A stretch of 33,946 bases of DNA from an uncultured Lachnospiraceae bacterium. Its GTDB lineage: Bacteria > Bacillota > Clostridia > Lachnospirales > Lachnospiraceae. How positions within the stretch are numbered: the first letter of the stretch is position 1; each line of letters starts with the position of its first letter. Location: the NCBI GenBank assembly GCA_947175435.1, contig CAMWMS010000010.1, positions 1 through 33,946 on the forward strand, read 5' to 3'. The position numbers and the translations under genes were made by a program. Below, in pieces: positions 1 to 33,946 of the stretch. The notes beneath the pieces were generated by a model. That model worked only from the letters and a program-made list of their open reading frames with translations, had not been told where the DNA came from and did no database searches.

Positions 1-546
1 TTTGATGTATTAAAGCTGCTTACGTCAAGACTACTCAGGTTACTACAACCGTTAAACATATACCACATATCAGTTACATTTGATGTATTAAAACTGCTTA
101 AGTCAAGACTGCTCAGATTACTACAATACTCAAACATAAATTCCATACCAATTACTTTTGATGTGTTAAAGTTACTTAAATCAAGGCTGCTCAGATTACG
201 ACAACCGGAAAACATATAGGCCATGTTAGTTACATTTGATGTATTAAAACTGCTTAAGTCAAGGCTGCTCAAATTACTGCAGCCACGAAACATATCGCTC
301 ATATCAGTTACTTTTGCCGTATTAAAGCTGCTTAAATTAAGGCTGCTCAGATTACTGCAGCCACGAAACATATAACTCATAGTAGTTACTTTTGCTGTAT
401 TAAAGCTGCTTAAATCAAGGCTGCTCAGACTACTGCAATACTCAAACATACAGCTCATTCTTGTTACATTAGATGTATCAAAGTTACTTAAATCCAAAGC
501 GATTAGATTGCTGCAACCAGCAAACATTCCATGAGCATTCGTCATG
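1..546 (-). repeat. Seven tandem 78-bp in-frame LRR-coding repeats
   Basis: Units begin at 1, 79, 157, 235, 313, 391 and 469, with an exact 78-bp period (26 codons). Each opens with a variant of tttgatgtattaaa on the plus strand. Neighbouring units differ by only some bases, so identity is high at the DNA level as well as in protein. This fits recent duplication or ongoing unequal exchange. There are no spacers, so it is not a CRISPR array. Confidence 0.92.
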
Positions 547-1226
547 CCAGTTACGCGCACTTCTGCGGATTTAACTGAATTCCTATATTCATACCATGGT
601 ACATATTGACCAGAATCATTTACATTACCGTTTCCTACCACCGTCAGCTTCCCACTCGCATCTATTACCCATTTGATATTCTTATAACTGCCGCTTGCGA
701 TGTCATCAGAAGCAAGCTGAACACATAGTTCATCTTCGATTTGATCCTCGTCTATTTGAGCCCCATCTGCCAGATTTTTCTTCGCTTCGCTTTCGTTCGT
801 CTTACCGCCCGCTTCGTCTTCCGAAACAATCTGCCCATCGTCTTCCTCATCCTGCCCTGTTTCCGTTTCCTCTGCATCGAGTAACTGTTCTTCCTGCGTT
901 TCACCTTCCTTTTCTTCCACAGATTCTCCACTATCCGCAGAATCTTCCTTCTCTGAAGTATCTGTCTGCGAACCCTCTTTCTCGTCAGCCCCCTCAACAG
1001 ATTCGGGGTCTTCCGCAACTTCTACGGAATCCCCTTTCTCTTCACTTTCCAAACCATCTTCTCCATTTGGTTTTTCCGCTTCCTTGGGTTGTGTGTCCTG
1101 TATTTCTTCAAACGCTGCATCTTCTTGTGCCGCAAATGCCAAACTGCCCGCAGAACTTAACTCTGTAAAAAACAGTGCCGTACATAATAATACTGTCCAT
1201 AGTTTTTTATAGTTTTTTCTTCTCAT
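1..1226 (-). CDS. BspA-type leucine-rich-repeat surface protein (3' end cut by window edge)
   Basis: Partial gene; the first 408 codons are in the window and there is no stop before position 1. The ATG at 1226 follows a GGAGAT ribosome site. Residues 1-29 are a Sec signal peptide: basic start, hydrophobic core, likely cleavage after LAFA. Residues about 30-150 form a very acidic Glu/Asp/Ser linker. A short unique stretch follows, and from about residue 227 come 26-residue repeats of the BspA/DUF285 class (DLSSFNTSNVT-x-M-x-x-MF-x-x-C-S-x-LSSL), about seven before the edge. Such proteins are secreted and often surface-attached, and bind host or matrix ligands in some species; the ligand here is unknown. 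The cell-wall anchor, if any, lies outside the window. Family assignment is firm, function is not. Confidence 0.88.
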   Translation of the reverse strand, partial: MRRKNYKKLWTVLLCTALFFTELSSAGSLAFAAQEDAAFEEIQDTQPKEAEKPNGEDGLESEEKGDSVEVAEDPESVEGADEKEGSQTDTSEKEDSADSGESVEEKEGETQEEQLLDAEETETGQDEEDDGQIVSEDEAGGKTNESEAKKNLADGAQIDEDQIEDELCVQLASDDIASGSYKNIKWVIDASGKLTVVGNGNVNDSGQYVPWYEYRNSVKSAEVRVTGMTNAHGMFAGCSNLIALDLSNFDTSNVTRMSCMFEYCSSLSSLDLSSFNTAKVTTMSYMFRGCSNLSSLNLSSFNTAKVTDMSDMFRGCSNLSSLDLSSFNTSNVTNMAYMFSGCRNLSSLDLSNFNTSKVIGMEFMFEYCSNLSSLDLSSFNTSNVTDMWYMFNGCSNLSSLDVSSFNTS

Positions 1227-1312
1227 TTGTATTATCTCCTTTATGCAACTCCTAAATTACCAAACCCATTGATTTTATCGGGCTTTCTTCCCTTTATCGA
1301 ATTAATATCCCA

Positions 1313-1337
1313 ACGCACGGTGGATTCCACCGAGCGT
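1313..1337. promoter_or_regulatory. Inverted repeat upstream of the BspA-like gene
   Basis: The core CGGTGGATTCCACCG (1318-1332) has 7-bp perfect arms around one central base. It is extended by ACGC/GCGT on the two sides after a single mismatch. It lies about 90 bp before the BspA-like start codon and just downstream (in minus-strand direction) of a TTGACA-like hexamer at 1339-1344. It could be an operator or an mRNA leader hairpin; no protein partner can be named. Confidence 0.45.
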
Positions 1338-1561
1338 GTCTGTCAAGCAACCTCCATACAATAATTTGCATTGTCGTGATACAGCATACAACATTTTAGG
1401 TATATTGTCTACTCAACCAATCATATGCAACTGCTGCAATATTTATATAAACAAAATCCTCCAGCTTATCTTTTACGATTTTTTAACATGAAACCCTCTG
1501 TTCTTTTCATCTTCCAACAAACAATGAATTTTTCTCCCATTCCATAACGTCACTTCATGAT

Positions 1562-1586
1562 AAAAGCTGTACGGTTTTCGTACAGC
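1562..1586 (-). terminator. Probable terminator of manC
   Basis: The stem GCTGTACG/CGTACAGC with a 5-base loop is followed on the minus strand by TTTTATC. It lies about 130 bp past the manC stop. The U-tract is short, so confidence is moderate. Confidence 0.5.
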
Positions 1587-1715
1587 CTTTGATCTTACAT
1601 TTGCCATCAAGTATTCTACACACATCTCTATATGTGTAATTTATTTTTTTAGCAAATATTCCAATAATATAATAATATTATTCGCACATATCATATACAG
1701 AGCGCTGCTATTGTA

Positions 1716-3035
1716 TCATTTTAAACACCGTTCTATCTTCTTCTTATCATGCACGCTGATCTCCGAACCGATCTGCACCTCGATTACCTGTAGCTTCGTG
1801 TCCGCCAGAATCGTATGCGGCACCCCTGCAGGCATCTGTATCACATCGCCCGCACCAACACTACGCTCCACGCCATCCACAATCGTCCTGCCCCGGCCGC
1901 TGATTACCGTCCAGACTTCATCACGCAGCGCATGGCTATGATAATTCATGCCGTGTCCGGGATTCAGGGTAACCTTAATCGTCATGCTGCCTTCTCCGAT
2001 ATCTATCACCTGAAAACTGCCCCATGACTTTTCTGCAAACATGATCTGCTGATTGATTTCGTCTACATACGGCTTAATATAACTCGACTGATTCTTGTCT
2101 GACACAAGAATTCCCTCCGGGCTGGCTGACACTACCACATCCTTCAGACCCATACACAAAACGGGAACATTGAGTTCATTCACCACATGCACGTTCTCGC
2201 ATCGCTCGTTCAGAATCGCCTTACCGATATGGTCACTCTCCATCGCTTCTGTCAGCGTATTCCATGTCCCCATATCTTTCCACATGCCCGCAAAGCGCAT
2301 CACTTCGATATGGTGCTCATGTTCTACTACCGCATAGTCAAAACTGATCTTCGTCAGTGAATCATACTTGGCGAAAAGATCCTGATAATCTGTAAACTCA
2401 ATCAATTCATGGGCACGCCGCAACACATACTCCAGTCTGAAAGCAAATACGCCACCGTTCCAGAGCGCGCCCTGTGCAATATATTCCTTAGCTGTCTCCT
2501 CAGTCGGTTTCTCCTTGAACACAGATACTCTGCTGATATTATCTTTACTCTCCGGAATGATATATCCGTATTTAGCGCTGGGATAAGTCGGTTCTATCCC
2601 CATGAGCACCAGATTGTCATTCCCGGTCTCTGCACGTTCACCCAGTCTGCGAAGTGCCTCAAAATAGTCTTCTTCCACATAAGGATCTACAGGACAGACC
2701 ACCACCGCCTCCTGCTCCGATATCCCTCTTACATCATGCAGATATGCCGCCGCAAGAACGATTGCCGGAAAAGTGTCCCTTCTGCATGGTTCCACGCTGA
2801 CACCTACGTTCTCACCCAACTGATTGTGTATCGCCGACACCTGCGACTTCGATGTCGCAATGGTAATATCGGCCTCTTTATCAACCGATCTGATCTGGCG
2901 GTACACCCGTTGTACCATGGATTCATATTCCCCGTCTGCAGTCTTAAAAATCTTAATAAACTGCTTAGAACGAGTATCATTGGAAAGCGGCCACAGACGT
3001 TTGCCCGATCCGCCCGATAACAATACGATATTCAT
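1716..3035 (-). CDS. manC: Mannose-1-phosphate guanylyltransferase (ManC/AlgA type) with C-terminal cupin domain
   Basis: 439 residues. The protein should make GDP-mannose from mannose-1-phosphate and GTP. The N-terminal nucleotidyltransferase domain (about 1-280) opens with the pyrophosphorylase signature GGSGKRLWPLS at residues 8-18 and has FKEKP further on. Residues about 330-425 form a cupin of the type-II mannose-6-phosphate isomerase family, with NYHSHALRDEVW and PAGVPHTI motifs. The full two-domain form is usually about 450-480 residues, so this is a slightly compact version; isomerase activity is possible but not certain. It starts with ATG about 60 bp after the ctpA-like gene ends. 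GDP-mannose feeds surface polysaccharide or glycoprotein synthesis, but no glycosyltransferase genes are nearby. Confidence 0.9.
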   Translation of the reverse strand: MNIVLLSGGSGKRLWPLSNDTRSKQFIKIFKTADGEYESMVQRVYRQIRSVDKEADITIATSKSQVSAIHNQLGENVGVSVEPCRRDTFPAIVLAAAYLHDVRGISEQEAVVVCPVDPYVEEDYFEALRRLGERAETGNDNLVLMGIEPTYPSAKYGYIIPESKDNISRVSVFKEKPTEETAKEYIAQGALWNGGVFAFRLEYVLRRAHELIEFTDYQDLFAKYDSLTKISFDYAVVEHEHHIEVMRFAGMWKDMGTWNTLTEAMESDHIGKAILNERCENVHVVNELNVPVLCMGLKDVVVSASPEGILVSDKNQSSYIKPYVDEINQQIMFAEKSWGSFQVIDIGEGSMTIKVTLNPGHGMNYHSHALRDEVWTVISGRGRTIVDGVERSVGAGDVIQMPAGVPHTILADTKLQVIEVQIGSEISVHDKKKIERCLK

Positions 3036-3093
3036 ACATCGTTCCTCTATGTCTATACTATCGATCAGTGGTCTATGCTGTCAGCATTCCGCT

Positions 3094-4482
3094 CTATTTG
3101 ATCATCCGGCTGATCTCCTGCTTTGCGCTCTCCAACTGATTATCCACGCCTCTCTCATAATATGCCTCACTGTCAAATTCACATTCAATATCGGGATCGA
3201 TTCCGATTCCGTGGATATTATTTCCCTTCGGGGTGTAGTAGGAACTGATCGTCAGCTTCAACGCTGTTCCGTCCGTAAGCGGCAGCACACGCTGCACAAT
3301 GCCCTTGCCAAACGTAGTCGTGCCGATCAGCGTTCCTTTATCATAGTCTTTGATGGCTCCGGCAAGTATCTCTGATGCGCTTGCCGAATTACCGTTGATC
3401 AGCACCACCATCGGAATATCCAACTCTTTCTTACCGTCGCAGGTATACTCATCTCTCTTGCCGTATTTATCTTCCGTATATACGATCAATCCTTTCGGTA
3501 GAATCGATCTGGCGATATCTACCACTACCGGAAGACTCCCTCCCGGGTTACTGCGCAGATCCAGAATCAATCCTTTTGCACCGGAGCCTTTGACTACTGC
3601 CAGTGCCTCCGTAAACTGATCCGTCGTCACATCGTCGAACTCTGTGATCTGAATATATCCTACTCCGTTATCATATATCTCATATTTGACCGTAGGAGAT
3701 TCGATCTTGCGTCGCTCCACATTAATCTCCAGATAATCCGTCTCTCCTTCCCGGACAATAGTCAAATGAACGGTAGTGCCTTCCTCGCCCTTTACTCTGG
3801 ACACGATCTCTGACAATTCCAGTCCCTGAATCATCTCTCCGTCCACCTGATATATGATGTCATTCTCCCGCAGTCCTGCTTCCTCTGCCGGCGTGTTTGC
3901 AATTACGCCGTTGATCTTGGCTAACCCGGTGGCGGTATCTAGCTGCAGATAAGCGCCGATTCCATAATAGATTCCTTCTGTATCCGCCAGCAATTCCTTC
4001 CACTCTTCCGCAGTATAATAAACCGAATAAGGATCACCCAGAGAAGCCACCAGGCCGGAATACATTCCCTCCGTCATCTCTTCGACGTCAATGTCTTCAT
4101 CTTTATAATAATACTCGCCAATCACTTCCTCCAAAGCTTCCAGCTTCTCTAAAGTGTCGTCATTTACCAGACTGTTTCCTGCGCTGCCATCCGCACTGGC
4201 CGTCTTAGCCGAACGGCTGCCCGCCAGATGATACAGCCTCGTTCCTACATATGCACAGCTTCCCACCAAAGCGGTAATGATTACACCCACCAGAAGACCC
4301 AGCAGGAATACACCGCCGCCTTTACTATTCTGACCTCCCGCAGGAGGATAGGGATACTGTGGCGGCACCGACGCTGGCTGCTGATAATAGGGGCTGTTTG
4401 TGCTCTGGTTTATGTTTCCCCGGCTGTAATCATTGTTATAGTAGTTATTGTCTCCATTCTGATTCAAATTGATCCTCTCCAT
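3094..4482 (-). CDS. ctpA: C-terminal processing peptidase, S41 family, with PDZ domain
   Basis: 462 residues. A long polar, Asn/Tyr/Pro/Gln-rich cytoplasmic N-terminus (1-52) precedes one membrane segment (about 57-80), so the protease domain is outside the cell. A PDZ domain spans about 172-255. The S41 core follows, with LDLRSNPGG (308-315), the serine motif NGNSASASE (363-371, catalytic Ser most likely 368) and the lysine motif TFGKG (Lys393). Such Ser/Lys proteases trim or destroy exported proteins. The start lies 11 bp after the stop of the M23 hydrolase gene, so the two are co-transcribed. Ctp proteases control peptidoglycan hydrolases in other bacteria, so the hydrolase is a plausible partner (inference). 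Confidence 0.93.
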   Translation of the reverse strand: MERINLNQNGDNNYYNNDYSRGNINQSTNSPYYQQPASVPPQYPYPPAGGQNSKGGGVFLLGLLVGVIITALVGSCAYVGTRLYHLAGSRSAKTASADGSAGNSLVNDDTLEKLEALEEVIGEYYYKDEDIDVEEMTEGMYSGLVASLGDPYSVYYTAEEWKELLADTEGIYYGIGAYLQLDTATGLAKINGVIANTPAEEAGLRENDIIYQVDGEMIQGLELSEIVSRVKGEEGTTVHLTIVREGETDYLEINVERRKIESPTVKYEIYDNGVGYIQITEFDDVTTDQFTEALAVVKGSGAKGLILDLRSNPGGSLPVVVDIARSILPKGLIVYTEDKYGKRDEYTCDGKKELDIPMVVLINGNSASASEILAGAIKDYDKGTLIGTTTFGKGIVQRVLPLTDGTALKLTISSYYTPKGNNIHGIGIDPDIECEFDSEAYYERGVDNQLESAKQEISRMIK

Positions 4483-27424: not shown

Positions 27425-28414
27425 TTATCCGTTCTTGCGTGCCGTAACGCTAACCCACTCACCCTGATATGTCACCTCGAGAATCTCCAGTCCTGCCGCT
27501 TCCACTGCCTCTCTGACTGTCTGTTCTTTCATGTCAATAATGCCCGACGTGATGTATATGCCGCCCTTTTTCATCTGGTGGACGATAACCGGAGTGAGCG
27601 GTACCAGTACGTCCGCAAGAATATTGGCAACTACGATATCATAGCACTCGTAACCTACCTGTTCCTGTACTTCCTTGTCCGTGATGATATTGCCGATCAT
27701 CATCCGAAAAGCCTCTTCTGCTATCCCGTTTGCTTCCATATTCTGCGCCACTGCCTCTACTGCACAAGGATCTAAGTCCGTACCGACTGCATGTTTCGCA
27801 CCATACATAAGGGCAAGAATCGCCAGAATACCGCTGCCTGTCCCTACGTCGAGAAGCTCTGTCTCAGGCGTAAGATATTTCTTAATCTGCCGGATACACA
27901 GCTGTGTCGTCTCATGCATGCCGGTTCCGAAAGCGGTTCCCGGATCGATATGCAGTATCTTCTTATTCCTGTCCTCCTCTTTTACCTTTTCCCAGGACGG
28001 AATCACCAGAAGATCATCTATGTAAAACTGGTGGAAATATTGTTTCCAGTTATTGATCCAGTCAATGTCCTCCGTCTCCGACACGATGATACTGCCCTCC
28101 CCGATCTCCATGTAGAAACGCAGTTCTTCAAGCTCCTGCCGTATCTGTGTCTCCACGGCATCCCTGTCAGTGGACATACCATTTACTTCCAGACTGCCAT
28201 CTTCCTTCTGTTCCACAAAGAAACTGAGGTAGGCGATGCCATCGTCCTCCGGTCCATCCGGCAGGATATCCACAAACATCTGCTCTTTCTCAAGCGCTGT
28301 AAGAGGTATCTTATCTTCAATCTGCGCGCCCTCCAGACCGATATCATAGAGCGTACTGATAATGATGTCCTCCGCTTCTGTTATTGTTTTAATCCTGAAC
28401 TTCGTCCACTTCAT
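27425..28414 (-). CDS. prmA: Ribosomal protein L11 methyltransferase PrmA
   Basis: 329 residues, slightly longer than the usual 310-315. The N-terminal substrate-recognition domain (about 1-150, acidic) precedes a class I methyltransferase domain. SAM motifs are LLDVGTGSGILAI and VGTDLDPCAVEAV; NPF/Y-like catalytic loop is VVANILADVLV. HIDPGTAFGTGMHETT is a hallmark of PrmA. It trimethylates lysines and the N-terminus of ribosomal protein L11. First gene of the prmA-vanZ-rsmE run; a GAGG ribosome site precedes the ATG. A gap of about 110 bp separates it from the DUF3048 gene upstream. Confidence 0.94.
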   Translation of the reverse strand: MKWTKFRIKTITEAEDIIISTLYDIGLEGAQIEDKIPLTALEKEQMFVDILPDGPEDDGIAYLSFFVEQKEDGSLEVNGMSTDRDAVETQIRQELEELRFYMEIGEGSIIVSETEDIDWINNWKQYFHQFYIDDLLVIPSWEKVKEEDRNKKILHIDPGTAFGTGMHETTQLCIRQIKKYLTPETELLDVGTGSGILAILALMYGAKHAVGTDLDPCAVEAVAQNMEANGIAEEAFRMMIGNIITDKEVQEQVGYECYDIVVANILADVLVPLTPVIVHQMKKGGIYITSGIIDMKEQTVREAVEAAGLEILEVTYQGEWVSVTARKNG

Positions 28415-28527: not shown

Positions 28528-29772
28528 TTATTCTTTGGCTTGACTGGCGGATTTGACCGAAGGTACATCCGGTGTGATCAGGCTGGTATCGTCCGCGCCA
28601 TACTGCACGCATTCACCATATTCCTGCCAGATATTGCATACCCATGTCTTACCCTGATTGAAGATAATCTCTTCGCCGTCTTCGTCGTAATACTTCGCCG
28701 GCGTGAAATCTCCGTCGTATCGCATCCATTTGCCCGGAATCGCTTTTCCGTTCGTGAAGACGATCGCATCGCCCTCTCCGTGTACCCCAAATGCAAGGTA
28801 ATCGTGATCATCTCTGACCTCTCCGTGGCAATACTGGAATATCACATTGCTGACCGCAAGCTGCTCATTGTTAAGCTCATCGATCTGCTTGCCCCCGTCC
28901 TGATAACGATAGTAGAGCTGATCGTCCTCATGATATTCAAAATATGGATTATACGCTCCGTATCCGCCGGAATTATTGCCAGTCTTACCGCCCGGATAGA
29001 TGATCCGCGCATCCTCATTCTCCGCATAATCCGCCCGCACATTATCCGCCGCAAACAGGAACGGAGGTACATAGGCCGCATCATAATTCCAGTCATATCC
29101 GAGACGGTCCACCGCTTTAAACAGACCGTCTATCTTGAGATATCCGGTAAATTCCTGAGCGTATCCCGGACGCTTTACTCTGCCGAAGGCCTCGTCAGCG
29201 GGATTGTGGATACCGCTCACCGCCGCACTGACATTATAATAGTTCGGCCTGTTGATCAATTCCTCCACATACGGCTTTGCCAATCCCCAGTTGCAGTAGA
29301 TCGCTTCATATCCCATTGCCACATAGACGAAATAGTCACGGCTGCTCCGCACCGGTCCGATCCGTTCCAGATCGTCAAAATCCTCAAATACAGCCATCAG
29401 TCTCGTAATGCGCCCCTCTACCGGCGCCTCATATATAATACCAGCCCTCGATAATCCATACTGCGGCATCGCCGGCCTGTTATTCGGAATCATGACCGCA
29501 ATCGGTCTTCTGTCCGCCTGCTCTGTGCTTGTCCACTGACCGGTCAAGTAACTCTGCACCTTACCGTTTACCACTGTTCTCTCTTCGATCACAGGATAAG
29601 CCGTCGTAGGTTCGGGTTCTTCCACGACCTCCTCTTCCGGTTCTGGCTCCGGTTCCACCACCACTTCGGGCTCCGGCAGCGGCGCAGGCTCTTCTTTCTT
29701 GCCGCAACCGTTTAAACAAACAGTTACACATAATGTCGTCGCAATTAATAAGGCTATTTTCTTATGAATCAT
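28528..29772 (-). CDS. DUF3048 lipoprotein (YerB-like)
   Basis: 414 residues. The signal peptide ends in the lipobox LNGC, with the lipid-carrying Cys23, so the protein is tethered outside the membrane. Residues about 28-57 are a Pro/Glu-rich spacer (PEPEVVVEPEPEPEEEVV). The rest is the DUF3048 N- and C-terminal pair: RRPIAVMIPNNRPAMPQYGLSRAGIIYEAPVEG, then ERIGPVRSSRDYFV, and, late, YGECVQYGADDTSLI. The family is common in Bacillota and its function is not known. It has its own promoter and probable terminator, so it is a single-gene unit between the protease locus and prmA. Confidence 0.9.
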   Translation of the reverse strand: MIHKKIALLIATTLCVTVCLNGCGKKEEPAPLPEPEVVVEPEPEPEEEVVEEPEPTTAYPVIEERTVVNGKVQSYLTGQWTSTEQADRRPIAVMIPNNRPAMPQYGLSRAGIIYEAPVEGRITRLMAVFEDFDDLERIGPVRSSRDYFVYVAMGYEAIYCNWGLAKPYVEELINRPNYYNVSAAVSGIHNPADEAFGRVKRPGYAQEFTGYLKIDGLFKAVDRLGYDWNYDAAYVPPFLFAADNVRADYAENEDARIIYPGGKTGNNSGGYGAYNPYFEYHEDDQLYYRYQDGGKQIDELNNEQLAVSNVIFQYCHGEVRDDHDYLAFGVHGEGDAIVFTNGKAIPGKWMRYDGDFTPAKYYDEDGEEIIFNQGKTWVCNIWQEYGECVQYGADDTSLITPDVPSVKSASQAKE

Positions 29773-29901: not shown

Positions 29902-30258
29902 TTACCTTCTGATAAAATTAACGGATAACTCATGATAACCATTTTCCTGTCCTCTTGCAATTACATCATATGGATCTTCTTCAGTTTGATATACAGCAAT
30001 CCCATTTTCGAAAGATACCATTGTTATTCCATACTGCTCTGCAATTTCCTCTGCTTCTTTCTGTGTATCGGCAACTGCTATGAGCGGATTTTCCGCTATT
30101 TGCATTGACTGCATTTGATTTTCTCCTATTTCTACTGTTTTTAAAAAAGGAAATGCCGGACCTCTTCCAAAATGAACGAACATTACATACCACCCCACCA
30201 ATACCACAATAATAACTGCTATAATTATTATTACTGTCATCAACATCTTCTTTTTCAC
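29902..30258 (-). CDS. Small membrane-anchored protein with a protease pro-region-like domain
   Basis: 118 residues from a GTG at 30258, which has AAAGGGG five to six bases upstream; longer in-frame readings have no ribosome site. A basic tip (KKK) is followed by a membrane segment at about 6-29, then an extracellular domain. Residues about 57-118 (PLIAVADTQKEAEEIAEQYG, then ENGIAVY) resemble the stretch in the pro-region of the large protease upstream (VVYLAETAEEAEQVATAFGG, then SYGVAVI). I compared these by eye. It lies 160 bp after the protease stop on the same strand, beyond a terminator. It may be an anchored inhibitor or folding helper for the protease (inference). I do not recognise a named family. 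Confidence 0.7.
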   Translation of the reverse strand: MKKKMLMTVIIIIAVIIVVLVGWYVMFVHFGRGPAFPFLKTVEIGENQMQSMQIAENPLIAVADTQKEAEEIAEQYGITMVSFENGIAVYQTEEDPYDVIARGQENGYHELSVNFIRR

Positions 30259-30386
30259 TATATCCCCTTTCCTATACAAAAAAAATACTAGTCTCGCATA
30301 TTGACATAATAGCATATTGGGTTGACGAATTAAACATCTCAGCAAATTTGTCGCTAGCTGAAATATCAGTAATCGCCTATTATAGC

Positions 30387-30417
30387 AAAAACAGCCGGCC
30401 GAAGCCGACTGTTTTTT
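30387..30417 (-). terminator. Terminator of the S8 protease gene (likely bidirectional)
   Basis: The 10-bp stem AACAGCCGGC/GCCGACTGTT with one G-T pair and a 4-base loop has T-runs on both sides (GTTTTTTATT on plus, GTTTTTGC on minus). It sits directly after the stop at 30419. Confidence 0.85.
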
Positions 30418-30418
30418 A

Positions 30419-33400
30419 TTAATTAGTATACTTGATTGTTCCGTCTGCAAAACGAGCAGCATAGGTTGTCATTTTTGCTGTCAAACCTGAGCCGTCCCGA
30501 AGTTTAACTGTAACTGTCATTTTTTGTGCTTCATTCATATATAAAGTACTTGTAGAAGATGGTTTATTCGTTGTCACTTTACCCGGAATTGGATCAACAT
30601 AATATATATAAAATGGTTCACCAGTCGTTTCGTCAATCACCGTCTCGGGGCCCTTGTCAAGTCCAGGATTCTTGCCACCAGACACAGTAACAGTGAAATA
30701 CTCAGGTGCATAAATTTCACTACCGTCTGATAATGTCACAGTTACAATATGATTTCTCTCTCCAATAGAAATTGCCTTAAATAGCGGCGTAACTACAAAG
30801 AGATACCGGTTAGAAACCACGCCACTGCCATCTGCCGCTGTTGCTGTGATGTAAGCCTCTTTATACAGTCCGGCTTCTTTCACTGCAGTCACCTTTCCGT
30901 TTTTGTCCACCTTCAATATACTGGGGTCACTAGATGCCCAAGTTACCTTTTTATCAGTAGGCGTTCCATAATTGCTGCTATATTTGGCAGACAGCTTAAT
31001 GCTCTTCCCTTGTGCTATATAACCTCCATAACCGTCAAGATCATTAAAATAACTTCCATAACTGTCTGTGGTTCCTATGCTTAACTTGGACATTGGCACA
31101 TTAACTTTCACTGTGCAAGTCGCTTTCTTATTGCTACCATCAGTAGCAGCACAAGTAATCGTAGCCTTACCCGGTGCCTTTGCAGTGATATTACCGTTTG
31201 TATCTACACTGACTATAGAGGGCGCGCTGCTGGTCCATTCGATCAAGGTCGTGTCTGCACCGGGCTCACCGTCTACGGTAGCAGTCAATTTCCCTGTAAG
31301 AGGCGTATCTGCGCTCGCTTTTTTACTGAAGAGTACCTTACTCTTATCAGAAAGCGTAATCGTTGTAATCTTTCCTGATACGATTGTAATAGGATAAGCT
31401 GCGGAAGAAATGTTGGAACCATCTGCCGCCGTGGCCGTCACAGTACATGTCCCTGTTGCACCACTCTTCGCAGTTACCTTACCATTTGCTACCGTTACCT
31501 TATCATTACCTTCCACTTTCCAAGTAAGCTTTTGGTTGGTGGCGTTCGCAGGTGCAACTGTCGCTTTGAGCGTAATCGCTTTACCGACAGCCACTTTTTG
31601 CGGTCCGCTTAATGCGATTCCCGTAACAGGCTGCTTTACGGTTATATTGCAAGATGCACTCTTATTGTATCCATCGTTTGAGATTGCTTTAATTACTGCT
31701 TTACCGGGTGCAACAGCGGTAACGACACCATCCTTAACCGTAGCTACCTTACTGTTGCTGCTGGACCAAATCACGTCGTTAGCACCATACACGGAACCCT
31801 CCTGTGTGGTCACATTAAGATAAAGTTTCAGATCCAGAGTTTTACCGGTATCCAAAGTCTGCGCTTTTAAGTTTTTCCCATTATCCTTAAATGCAATCGT
31901 CTGGATGATCGATCCACCAATTACCTCAAACTCATAAGTTCCCACAGCACCATTATAATTTTTGCCATCTGCTCCCACTGCTGTAGCCTTAACAGTATAC
32001 TTGCCGGGAGCGGTGGTAGCCTTAGTTTTTATAGTGCCATTTGCAACCGTGATTCCTGCATCCTTCTCCGTGTCACCCACAGACCACTGCACTTTTGCAG
32101 AAACCGCATACGCCGGTGTAACAAACGCGGATAAAGCTAAACTCTTACCCGGGGCAACGCGTGAAATACCTGTCTTAGAATCCAATGTCACGGCTGTAGG
32201 AATCGGTGCTAAAGTGCATGCCTTAGAAGCAACCTTGCTCGCCTTACCCGTAATCGGATTCAAAGCAATCGCCTTGATGGTCACCTTCTTCGCACCCGTT
32301 AATGTAATCGTCGCTCCCTCAGTATACTTACTACCGTTTGTAACCTCACCATTCTTATATGTGGGATTCTTTCCATCTGTTGTATACCAGATTTCCACAC
32401 CTACAGCAGTTTTTGTAGAAAGTGTAACAGTTACGCTCTCAGTTTCATAAGTCGTACCGGTCTTCGGTGTTTCCTTGATCGTAATAACCGGAGCATCCGG
32501 TGCGGACATATCCGATGCAATTTTCAATGCACCCGGCAGCCAAGTAGTACCTGCTCCCATACCGGAGCTGGAGCACTTAGTAGTGGAAGACTTCATGGCG
32601 GAGAGAAGTGCATCCACTCTGGCTTTACCAGTTTTTTTACGAATGGAGTCGTTGGCGGAAAGAATGACCGCCGCTGTACCCGACGCCGCAGGACATGCCT
32701 GACTGGTACCACTCATATAACCATAACCACTGGGAAGCGTAGAGTAAATATGCACTCCCGGGAAAGACAGCTTCACACTGCCGCCATAGTTAGAGAAAGA
32801 AGCTCTTGCACCGTTCTGGTCCACCGCTCCCACGGAAATAGCACCGTTATAGGCCGCCGGGAAGTTATAGCCGTCTGTATCGTCATTACCGGAAGAAGCA
32901 AAGATTGCTACACCAGCTTTATATGCTTTAGAGACCGTCTCCTCATATTGAGCGTTGTACATGGAACTACCCAAGCTCATATTGATGATATCGTTACCAT
33001 CCGTCACAGCGGCATTAATAGCTCTCATAATGTCTGCAGAGTCTGCACTTTCGCCCGCTGAAGGAAATACACAATACCCCCTAACCTGAGCGTCCGGCGC
33101 GATTCCTACGCCGCCTTTACCGTTATCATCTGCTGCAATGATACCCGCCACGTGTGTACCATGTGTACCGTTGTCGGTGTTATTCTCCGTGCCGGTTGCG
33201 CCTTTAACAAAATTTCTTCCCGCAACAGCATTTGCTGATAAATCCTCATGGTTTTTCTGTAACCCTGAATCAATCACGGCTACTTTCACACCCTGACCTT
33301 TATAACCCGCTGCCCAAGCATAGCTAGTACCTATGTAGTCATGCTGCCACTGTTCACCAAGCCCCGGATCAGTGGGACCGGCCACTGCCTTGCCCTCGTT

Positions 33401-33946
33401 CACATCACTTGTAAGATAGTTATAATAGTTGGGCCATACAGCGGGCAGCTTCATATCAGGCTCTGCAGCAGCAGCCACTGCCATGGTTACCGTAGCTTTC
33501 TTGGGTAGGCTGATTACTGCCACTCCATAAGAGTAGCTGTCTATCTCACCGCCAAAAGCCGTAGCAACCTGTTCGGCTTCCTCTGCCGTCTCAGCCAGAT
33601 ACACCACTTCGCCGAGCTCATAAATTCCATCTGCATCTGGGTATTCGTCGGCATTTCTGGCATATGTACTTAAAATATCGCTCACATGTGCAGCCAGCAC
33701 TCTTTTATCCGCCATCTGCGTCGAGGACAATGTATAGTTATCGCCTAATCCGGGGAAGATTGCAAAAACATCTTCCTCCTCGGGGTCTTCTTCCGGAAGC
33801 GTATTCTCCGATATCGTATTTTCTGATACACTATCCTCAGAATCTTCTGTCTCGTCTAAAGAAGCCTCCTCCCTATCGGGCGCTTCTGTTTCTTCCGAAG
33901 GCGCCCCTGTGTCCTCTGAGGGTTCTTCGGGCTCCCCATCTTCTCC
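30419..33946 (-). CDS. Secreted subtilisin-like (S8) protease with BIG2 domains (5' end cut by window edge)
   Basis: Partial; 1175 residues are in the window and the frame stays open to its end. Numbering is from the edge. Residues 1-60 are a Glu/Asp/Ser/Pro linker; about 75-150 is an I9-like pro-region (VVYLAETAEEAEQVA). The catalytic domain has Asp226 (VAVIDSGL), His262 (NGTHGTHVAG), Asn354 (SSGND) and Ser415 (SGTSQACPA). The usual PH after the serine motif is PA here. After it come a CHB_HEX/FN3-like domain (about 450-540), five Ig-like BIG2 repeats (about 545-1040, each ending like VATVKDGVVTAVAPGKAVI) and a beta-rich tail. No LPXTG or choline-binding anchor is present. The true start and signal peptide lie beyond the window. 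Confidence 0.93.
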   Translation of the reverse strand, partial: GEDGEPEEPSEDTGAPSEETEAPDREEASLDETEDSEDSVSENTISENTLPEEDPEEEDVFAIFPGLGDNYTLSSTQMADKRVLAAHVSDILSTYARNADEYPDADGIYELGEVVYLAETAEEAEQVATAFGGEIDSYSYGVAVISLPKKATVTMAVAAAAEPDMKLPAVWPNYYNYLTSDVNEGKAVAGPTDPGLGEQWQHDYIGTSYAWAAGYKGQGVKVAVIDSGLQKNHEDLSANAVAGRNFVKGATGTENNTDNGTHGTHVAGIIAADDNGKGGVGIAPDAQVRGYCVFPSAGESADSADIMRAINAAVTDGNDIINMSLGSSMYNAQYEETVSKAYKAGVAIFASSGNDDTDGYNFPAAYNGAISVGAVDQNGARASFSNYGGSVKLSFPGVHIYSTLPSGYGYMSGTSQACPAASGTAAVILSANDSIRKKTGKARVDALLSAMKSSTTKCSSSGMGAGTTWLPGALKIASDMSAPDAPVITIKETPKTGTTYETESVTVTLSTKTAVGVEIWYTTDGKNPTYKNGEVTNGSKYTEGATITLTGAKKVTIKAIALNPITGKASKVASKACTLAPIPTAVTLDSKTGISRVAPGKSLALSAFVTPAYAVSAKVQWSVGDTEKDAGITVANGTIKTKATTAPGKYTVKATAVGADGKNYNGAVGTYEFEVIGGSIIQTIAFKDNGKNLKAQTLDTGKTLDLKLYLNVTTQEGSVYGANDVIWSSSNSKVATVKDGVVTAVAPGKAVIKAISNDGYNKSASCNITVKQPVTGIALSGPQKVAVGKAITLKATVAPANATNQKLTWKVEGNDKVTVANGKVTAKSGATGTCTVTATAADGSNISSAAYPITIVSGKITTITLSDKSKVLFSKKASADTPLTGKLTATVDGEPGADTTLIEWTSSAPSIVSVDTNGNITAKAPGKATITCAATDGSNKKATCTVKVNVPMSKLSIGTTDSYGSYFNDLDGYGGYIAQGKSIKLSAKYSSNYGTPTDKKVTWASSDPSILKVDKNGKVTAVKEAGLYKEAYITATAADGSGVVSNRYLFVVTPLFKAISIGERNHIVTVTLSDGSEIYAPEYFTVTVSGGKNPGLDKGPETVIDETTGEPFYIYYVDPIPGKVTTNKPSSTSTLYMNEAQKMTVTVKLRDGSGLTAKMTTYAARFADGTIKYTN

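Follow-up and report, generated by a model that had tools for sequence, protein, structure and literature searches.

We analysed a stretch of 33,946 nucleotides of contig CAMWMS010000010.1 (GenBank assembly GCA_947175435.1, 82% complete), from an uncultured Lachnospiraceae bacterium. This whole stretch, here called the window, carries at one end the truncated gene of a protease of family S8 and, following it on the same strand, a small gene coding for a predicted membrane-anchored protein. Judged by alignments across the family, the outer domain of this small protein is a homologue of the S8 pro-region; the window pair alone is suggestive of this, and the family makes the homology solid. Related small genes stand beside S8 proteases in many genomes and vary together with the protease that follows them, and we put forward, as a reading with about even chances of being right, that their products are cognate membrane-tethered copies of the prodomain, which would restrain a secreted S8 protease at the cell surface. 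The two genes of the window are probably not a matched pair themselves.

Homology between the small outer domain and S8 prodomains

When the outer domain of the small protein and the prodomain of its neighbour in the window were compared directly, BLASTP gave 25.4 bits with 11 of 31 residues identical (expectation value, E, of 9e-6 for this single comparison), and the observed local score was reached by one of 5000 shuffles. The window protease was absent from the phmmer matches of the window outer domain at E<=0.01, among which the prodomains of other proteases were present. The small protein of the window on its own matched prodomains in frames of about 1300 codons of other genomes with E down to 1.9e-6, and a profile built from 14 small outer domains matched prodomains with E down to 1.9e-14. 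Comparison of the small-protein profile with a catalytic profile placed a prodomain next to 56 of the 57 large S8 catalytic domains of the genus, including that of the window; this count was made by eye from two search lists, and the exception was a fragment of 861 codons in genome G023. It was preferred to the value of 64 of 66 proteases with a prodomain region obtained from the mapped loci, which had been picked by profile hits and are therefore no independent sample.

Alignments of the small proteins and of the regions preceding the catalytic domains were made separately and compared with hhalign, leaving out two protease fragments without the prodomain region. The probability was 97.7% with the T type and 98.5% with the L type of small protein (the types are described below), and the score of 82 compared with a best score of 21 in 300 column shuffles from which gappy columns had been removed. 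Earlier figures of 99% were biased because both alignments had been fitted to one model, a bias that separate alignments avoid. In a first null, which kept the gappy columns, three of 100 shuffles scored about 132 and exceeded the real match; these were treated as artefacts, because only 6, 9 and 14 columns were aligned and the two that were inspected sat at the end of the template. The likeness between the two domains, pointed out in a preliminary description of the window, was thus borne out as homology.

Outside the present family, the domain was compared with PF22148 (Fervidolysin_NPro-like), whose cut-off of 21 bits was passed by all five D-type small proteins as stand-alone proteins (25.5 to 29.5 bits) and by some protease prodomains, and was not reached by the five scanned small proteins of other types. 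The D-type genes of genomes G018 and G020 were not listed in a six-frame search with PF22148, though both pass as proteins. Matches to PF18492 (ORF_2_N) were weak, with four of 16 small proteins at E<=1 (best 0.029) and two of 12 protease fragments (best 0.12). Among the sequences of solved structures the small-protein profile found nothing believable (best E 0.47), and the protease profile matched 200 chains, the best 60 of which align over the catalytic part.

Distribution of the small gene and its pairing with proteases

Fifty small genes were mapped, corresponding to all profile hits in frames of fewer than 300 codons, 44 of them from 37 genomes of the genus and six from the family sample. 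Three loci were left out: L087, whose hit is itself the start of a protease truncated by the edge of its contig; L044, with a weak match (E 0.004) that a later profile did not recover; and L046 (E 0.459). Genomes G731, G755 and G773, in which a small gene is found together with a nearby prodomain, lie outside the 50. The longest frame was taken as the gene, hence some intergenic gaps are negative.

Each of the 50 small genes lay within 700 base pairs (bp) of an S8 protease encoded on its own strand, so the gene pair first described in the window recurs in other genomes, and the small gene is not one that occurs widely away from such proteases: none among the 50 lacked a nearby protease. Proteases without a small neighbour do occur. 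The protease was downstream of the small gene in 40 cases, with a median gap of 36 bp, and in 39 of these it lay no more than 100 bp away. The five D-type genes and that of locus L085 were found directly downstream of a protease, and only an upstream protease was present for the window small gene and its counterparts in L055 and L064. On contig C229 of the window's genome, a further small gene precedes a protease-like frame of which only the start lies within the contig.

The profile search detected the small gene in 37 of the 77 genomes of the genus. Large S8 proteases, defined by E of 2.1e-82 or better and a frame of more than 600 codons (the next hits had E of 4.8e-42 and frames of at most 371 codons), were present in the same 37 genomes and in one more, which is 64% complete. 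Both genes were therefore found in 37 genomes, the protease alone in one, the small gene alone in none and neither in 39 (Fisher p 2.9e-21, a value that ignores kinship). Matches were rarer in the wider samples: 12 of 397 genomes in the family sample, nine of them outside the genus and six of these nine with the small gene; 10 of 392 in the order sample; and one of 398 in the phylum sample, which was the window's own genome.

Several loci depart from the usual arrangement. Locus L090 (6799-11565, genome G478) holds two shorter S8 proteases, of 725 and 741 codons, whose prodomain is of the same type; no small gene lies within 700 bp of them, and they could serve as a control for the contribution of the small gene. 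Locus L035 (1335-14352), flanked by dnaJ-like and DUF3048/prmA-like genes, combines three large S8 proteases in tandem with a single small gene, and this interval seems to collect such cassettes in several genomes. On contig C14 of genome G023 (L029 161-3075, the same as L092 8161-11075) two overlapping frames (122 and 849 codons) together make up a split S8 protease without a recognised prodomain, and transposase-like frames come after it. In L067 (9337-13849, genome G100) the S8 frame starts 535 bp past the small gene, with a same-strand frame of 130 codons between them, and the start of this protease may be broken or misread.

Correspondence between small genes and downstream proteases

Distances among the small outer domains were correlated with distances among the catalytic domains of the downstream proteases (r 0.85, n=40, p 2e-4). 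Where proteases flank the small gene on either side, as they do in nine loci, the correlation was 0.91 with the downstream protease (p 2e-4) versus 0.003 with the upstream one (p 0.40). Host relatedness, expressed as DnaJ distance, was removed in 18 loci only, and in these the partial correlation with the downstream protease was 0.85. In a tree of the catalytic domains, 13 partners of L-type genes formed one clade (local support 0.999), which also holds the window protease and that of L091, the latter without a small neighbour, and the five partners of D-type genes formed a separate clade (support 0.998).

For the comparison of prodomains, the cognate of each small protein was taken as the downstream protease where one was present and as the upstream one for the D type and L085, giving 45 pairs; the names b2-b3 hairpin and helix 1 denote secondary structure read from the sequence. 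The b2-b3 hairpin was more similar to that of the cognate prodomain (mean identity 0.462) than when pairs were permuted among all (0.365) or within types (0.401; both p 2e-4), and the hairpin of the own prodomain ranked above the median in 39 of the 45 pairs. Helix 1, used as an internal control, had no cognate excess (p 0.56), and the excess in the C-terminal half was slight (p 0.001; within type 0.0074). Eight loci have a prodomain on either side of the small gene; there, hairpin identity averaged 0.43 with the downstream prodomain versus 0.26 with the upstream one, two of the loci being ties. Common descent alone would not be expected to make long-separated paralogues alike at one site, so the likeness at the hairpin probably reflects either a shared binding surface or gene conversion.

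Probable and candidate partners of the two window genes

The preliminary description had proposed that the window protease and the small gene could be a protease and its own antidote. This part of the proposal was not supported: since the small gene coevolves with its downstream neighbour in the nine two-sided loci, and since the window protease groups in the tree with the partners of L-type genes, the two are probably not matched, and their direct pairing was set aside on these grounds. A more fitting candidate partner for the window protease was found on contig C229 of the same genome (G000:C229, L045, positions 2-4387), which carries a protease cut at its 5' end (protease A), a lipoprotein-type small gene and the start of a window-like protease. 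Among the prodomains compared, the hairpin of this lipoprotein had that of the window protease as its best match (0.77 identity, tied with two close relatives in L057 and L040), and that of the window small protein was only 0.31 identical to the prodomain beside it.

The order of genes in L047, from a Lachnospiraceae metagenome-assembled genome, is protease A, lipoprotein-type small gene, orthologue of the window protease, T-type small gene, an extra frame and then the same downstream genes as in the window. From this synteny we infer that C229 and the window are adjacent and that the protease start at the end of C229 probably continues at the window edge. The proteins encoded at the two ends are of one kind and both represented by N-terminal portions, but the DNA of the ends shares only an exact overlap of two bases and six 15-mers. 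Tree, hairpin sequence and synteny together indicate that the window protease probably goes with the C229 lipoprotein. The extra frame, between the cassette array and the DUF3048-like gene, has 351 codons in L047 (11360-12415) and 339 codons in L050 (14760-15779).

Protease A was considered as partner of the window small gene because it is present in the three genomes having this terminal small gene; its hairpin identity of 0.31 is equal to that with the window protease, and it is at most a candidate. Apart from these two, no large S8 protease was seen in the window's genome (82% complete), where the remaining S8 hits are frames of 320, 571 and 674 codons.

The terminal small gene is kept by purifying selection, with a ratio of nonsynonymous to synonymous substitution rates (dN/dS) of 0.16 against its counterpart in L048 and of 0.30 against that in L047. 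In L048 (taken as one locus with L055, whose contig is equally long) the same gene lies 3' of a protease from a different clade, from which it appears that the terminal gene is not bound to its upstream neighbour; it is kept in three species while the preceding protease differs.

Predicted anchors and tails of the small proteins

Hydropathy or a lipobox, assessed by a hydropathy scale and a pattern without a dedicated predictor, indicated an anchor in 49 of the 50 small proteins. The T type (n=22) has a hydrophobic stretch followed by a GWY...GP.FP segment, the L type (n=14) a lipobox and the D type (n=5) a hydrophobic stretch, which is also found in eight of the remaining nine proteins. Neither signal was detected by these two means in the protein of L082, whose start may be misread. 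The positively charged N-terminus and the lipobox suggest that the small proteins face outward. The tail that would enter the active site of the protease has 9-12 residues in the L type and 6-9 in the D type. The D-type loci (L042 6770-11292, L043 3310-7782, L074, L075 and L077) have the small gene 3' of the protease and keep a prodomain-like C-terminus, PNYQ.Y.

Organisation of the window locus

The features of the locus are listed in Table 1.

Table 1. Features of the protease and small-gene locus, in window coordinates
Feature	Position	Strand	Evidence and remarks
S8 protease	30419..33946	-	open frame of 1175 codons, 5' end past the contig edge; PF00082 166.9 bits, Big_2 115 bits
Protease prodomain	33410..33604	-	small-protein profile E 4.2e-11; PF22148 15.1 bits, under the cut-off of 21
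Protease catalytic domain	32504..33355	-	catalytic profile E 3.1e-125
Terminator-like hairpin, directly 3' of the protease stop	30392..30407	-	pattern scan and sequence reading
Ribosome-binding site AGGAAAGGGG of the small gene	30264..30273	-	read from sequence
Small gene, 118 amino acids, T type	29902..30258	-	open frame, GTG start at 30258; relatives in L047 (82% identical) and L048 (91%)
Predicted membrane helix of the small protein (approximate limits)	30178..30243	-	mean hydropathy 3.56 over 17 residues
Outer, prodomain-like domain of the small protein	29902..30087	-	profile match 29902-30084; homology to prodomains

The window protease consists, according to its Pfam matches and reading frame, of an acidic N-terminal stretch, the prodomain, the catalytic domain, Fn3_assoc and Big_2 repeats, and the Asp, His, Asn and Ser positions of its catalytic domain were invariant in the seven sequences aligned. 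The small gene begins 160 bp after the stop of the protease and, as the preliminary description had it, lies on the same strand with a predicted membrane anchor and a ribosome-binding site of its own. Its product has a lysine-rich start, one hydrophobic stretch and an outer domain of about 60 residues, and its counterparts in L047 and L048 have ATG where the window has GTG. A pattern scan detected two terminator-like sites in the scanned stretch against a mean of 0.8 in shuffles, one of them directly after the protease, and no promoter-like site between the two genes, suggesting that the protease and the small gene are likely transcribed separately. No protease follows the small gene in the window; downstream of it are a lipoprotein-like gene (28528-29772), which we take to be DUF3048, and a prmA-like gene (27425-28414), with dnaJ and dnaK presumably further along.

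Proposed role and alternative explanations

The small protein would be a stand-alone paralogue of the S8 prodomain that a helix (in relatives, a lipid) holds on the outer face of the membrane. Every such protein would be produced alongside a single cognate secreted S8 protease, its gene usually standing immediately upstream of that of the enzyme, and would bind the face of the enzyme used by the built-in prodomain, so that the bound protease would be restrained near the membrane and the cell's own surface protected. We prefer this restraint at the surface, at roughly even chances, because the copy is separate and pinned outside, its gene usually precedes that of the enzyme, and one hairpin resembles the enzyme's own prodomain. 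The earlier idea of a tethered prodomain copy beside its protease therefore stands as regards homology, predicted tether and gene pairing, and is not supported as regards the two window genes as a matched pair. Several observations weigh against restraint. A Pfam scan of the window small protein matched no prodomain family, and its hairpin fits the neighbouring prodomain poorly, as given above. When all 19 small genes with an upstream protease were considered, D type included, the correlation with the upstream protease rose to 0.59. The T-type tail varies from 4 to 39 residues, that of the window being the shortest of the 50, from which T-type proteins may bind without plugging the active site. 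Gene conversion could also account for the hairpin likeness.

It is possible, if doubtful, that the tethered domain is instead an external folding aid, which would help the emerging protease to fold and then release it, in the manner of ORF2 with ASP of Aeromonas. The prodomains of subtilases act as folding aids (PMC6993865), the ASP helper is supplied by a neighbouring gene (PMC5638518), four of 16 small proteins touch ORF_2_N with E of 0.029 or worse, and the small gene is usually first in the gene order. However, nearly all large S8 catalytic domains of the genus keep their own prodomain (56 of 57), whereas ASP is without one, so a pure folding aid would be less needed. A domain that docks the mature protease on the cell rather than stopping it seems improbable to us. 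The predicted membrane anchors, the cognate matching seen in the distance correlation and the hairpin, the variable T-type tails that need not enter the active site, and a set of Pfam matches that for the window protease includes neither a sortase nor a surface-layer domain would all agree with docking, but one would expect a binding site copied from the prodomain surface to disturb activity. As for the window small gene itself, the missing downstream protease, a hairpin that fits neither protease of the two contigs well (0.31 and 0.31) and the shortest tail could mark it as a leftover from cassette duplication that has no role today; its low dN/dS values, intact open frame and ribosome site, and its retention in three species behind differing proteases argue against a remnant, which we regard as very improbable.

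Beyond the restraint of single proteases, we can imagine modular protease-immunity cassettes, in which each S8 protease has its own tethered decoy prodomain with the b2-b3 hairpin as recognition code, arrays such as that between dnaJ and prmA gain, lose and shuffle cassettes, and extra decoys guard against foreign proteases. This extension is speculative and on the whole unlikely; if it were true, decoys like that of the window could protect against proteases that the cell does not make, those of neighbours included.

Comparison with known systems

The prodomains of subtilases fold and then inhibit their enzyme, and stand-alone propeptide-like inhibitors of MEROPS family I9 have been reported, namely SUB1-ProM of Plasmodium, TgMIC5, POIA1, the yeast proteinase B inhibitor and SPI-1 of Arabidopsis; those named in the available part of this source are all eukaryotic (PMC6993865). 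SUB1-ProM resembles the window family in having a separate small gene that adjoins subtilase genes and encodes a propeptide-like domain (PMC6993865, same part), and the window small protein likewise has its own gene, a frame with its own start and ribosome site, as stand-alone inhibitors have. The SUB1-ProM group is, however, eukaryotic and its inhibition has been measured, whereas the window family is bacterial and membrane-anchored, comprises many cognate pairs and has inhibition as a predicted property. In the ASP-ORF2 system of Aeromonas, as described in the portion of PMC5638518 at hand, a bacterial S8 protease is also acted on by the protein of a neighbouring gene, and ORF2 also inhibits ASP; ASP is propeptide-deficient, in contrast to the proteases of the window family, whose prodomain is retained and has a homologue in the anchored small protein.

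Protease genes beside inhibitor genes are also described for SpeB-Spi, staphopain-staphostatin and the Bfi proteins of Bacteroides; Spi is an analogue of the propeptide, and lipoprotein signals are predicted for some of the Bfi proteins (PMC2873492). The partners in these systems are cysteine proteases of families C10 and C47, whereas that of the window belongs to S8, and the Bfi proteins resemble staphostatins, not propeptides. PF22148 was named for a domain inside a fervidolysin-type protease, and the D type of the window family carries this match in stand-alone proteins. SppI of Bacillus subtilis, in the short description available, is a membrane protein that inhibits the membrane protease SppA; it concerns another protease family and is set beside the window family by description, and the Bacillus intracellular protease inhibitor IPI, from a similarly brief account, is a further named relative in idea. 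A survey of prokaryotic serine proteases mentions, in the part available, N-terminal domains inside subtilases and names no separate ones (PMC2605481). Among the ranked results of searches of the open-access literature there was no description of a bacterial membrane-tethered prodomain copy, which is weak evidence of novelty because subscription papers mostly lay outside this scope.

What the present family would add to these systems is a bacterial, membrane-anchored group with many cognate pairs and sequence evidence for partner specificity. Its matched and mismatched pairs form a natural set for asking how a prodomain recognises one subtilase over another, and for asking how a gut commensal tolerates its own secreted proteases.

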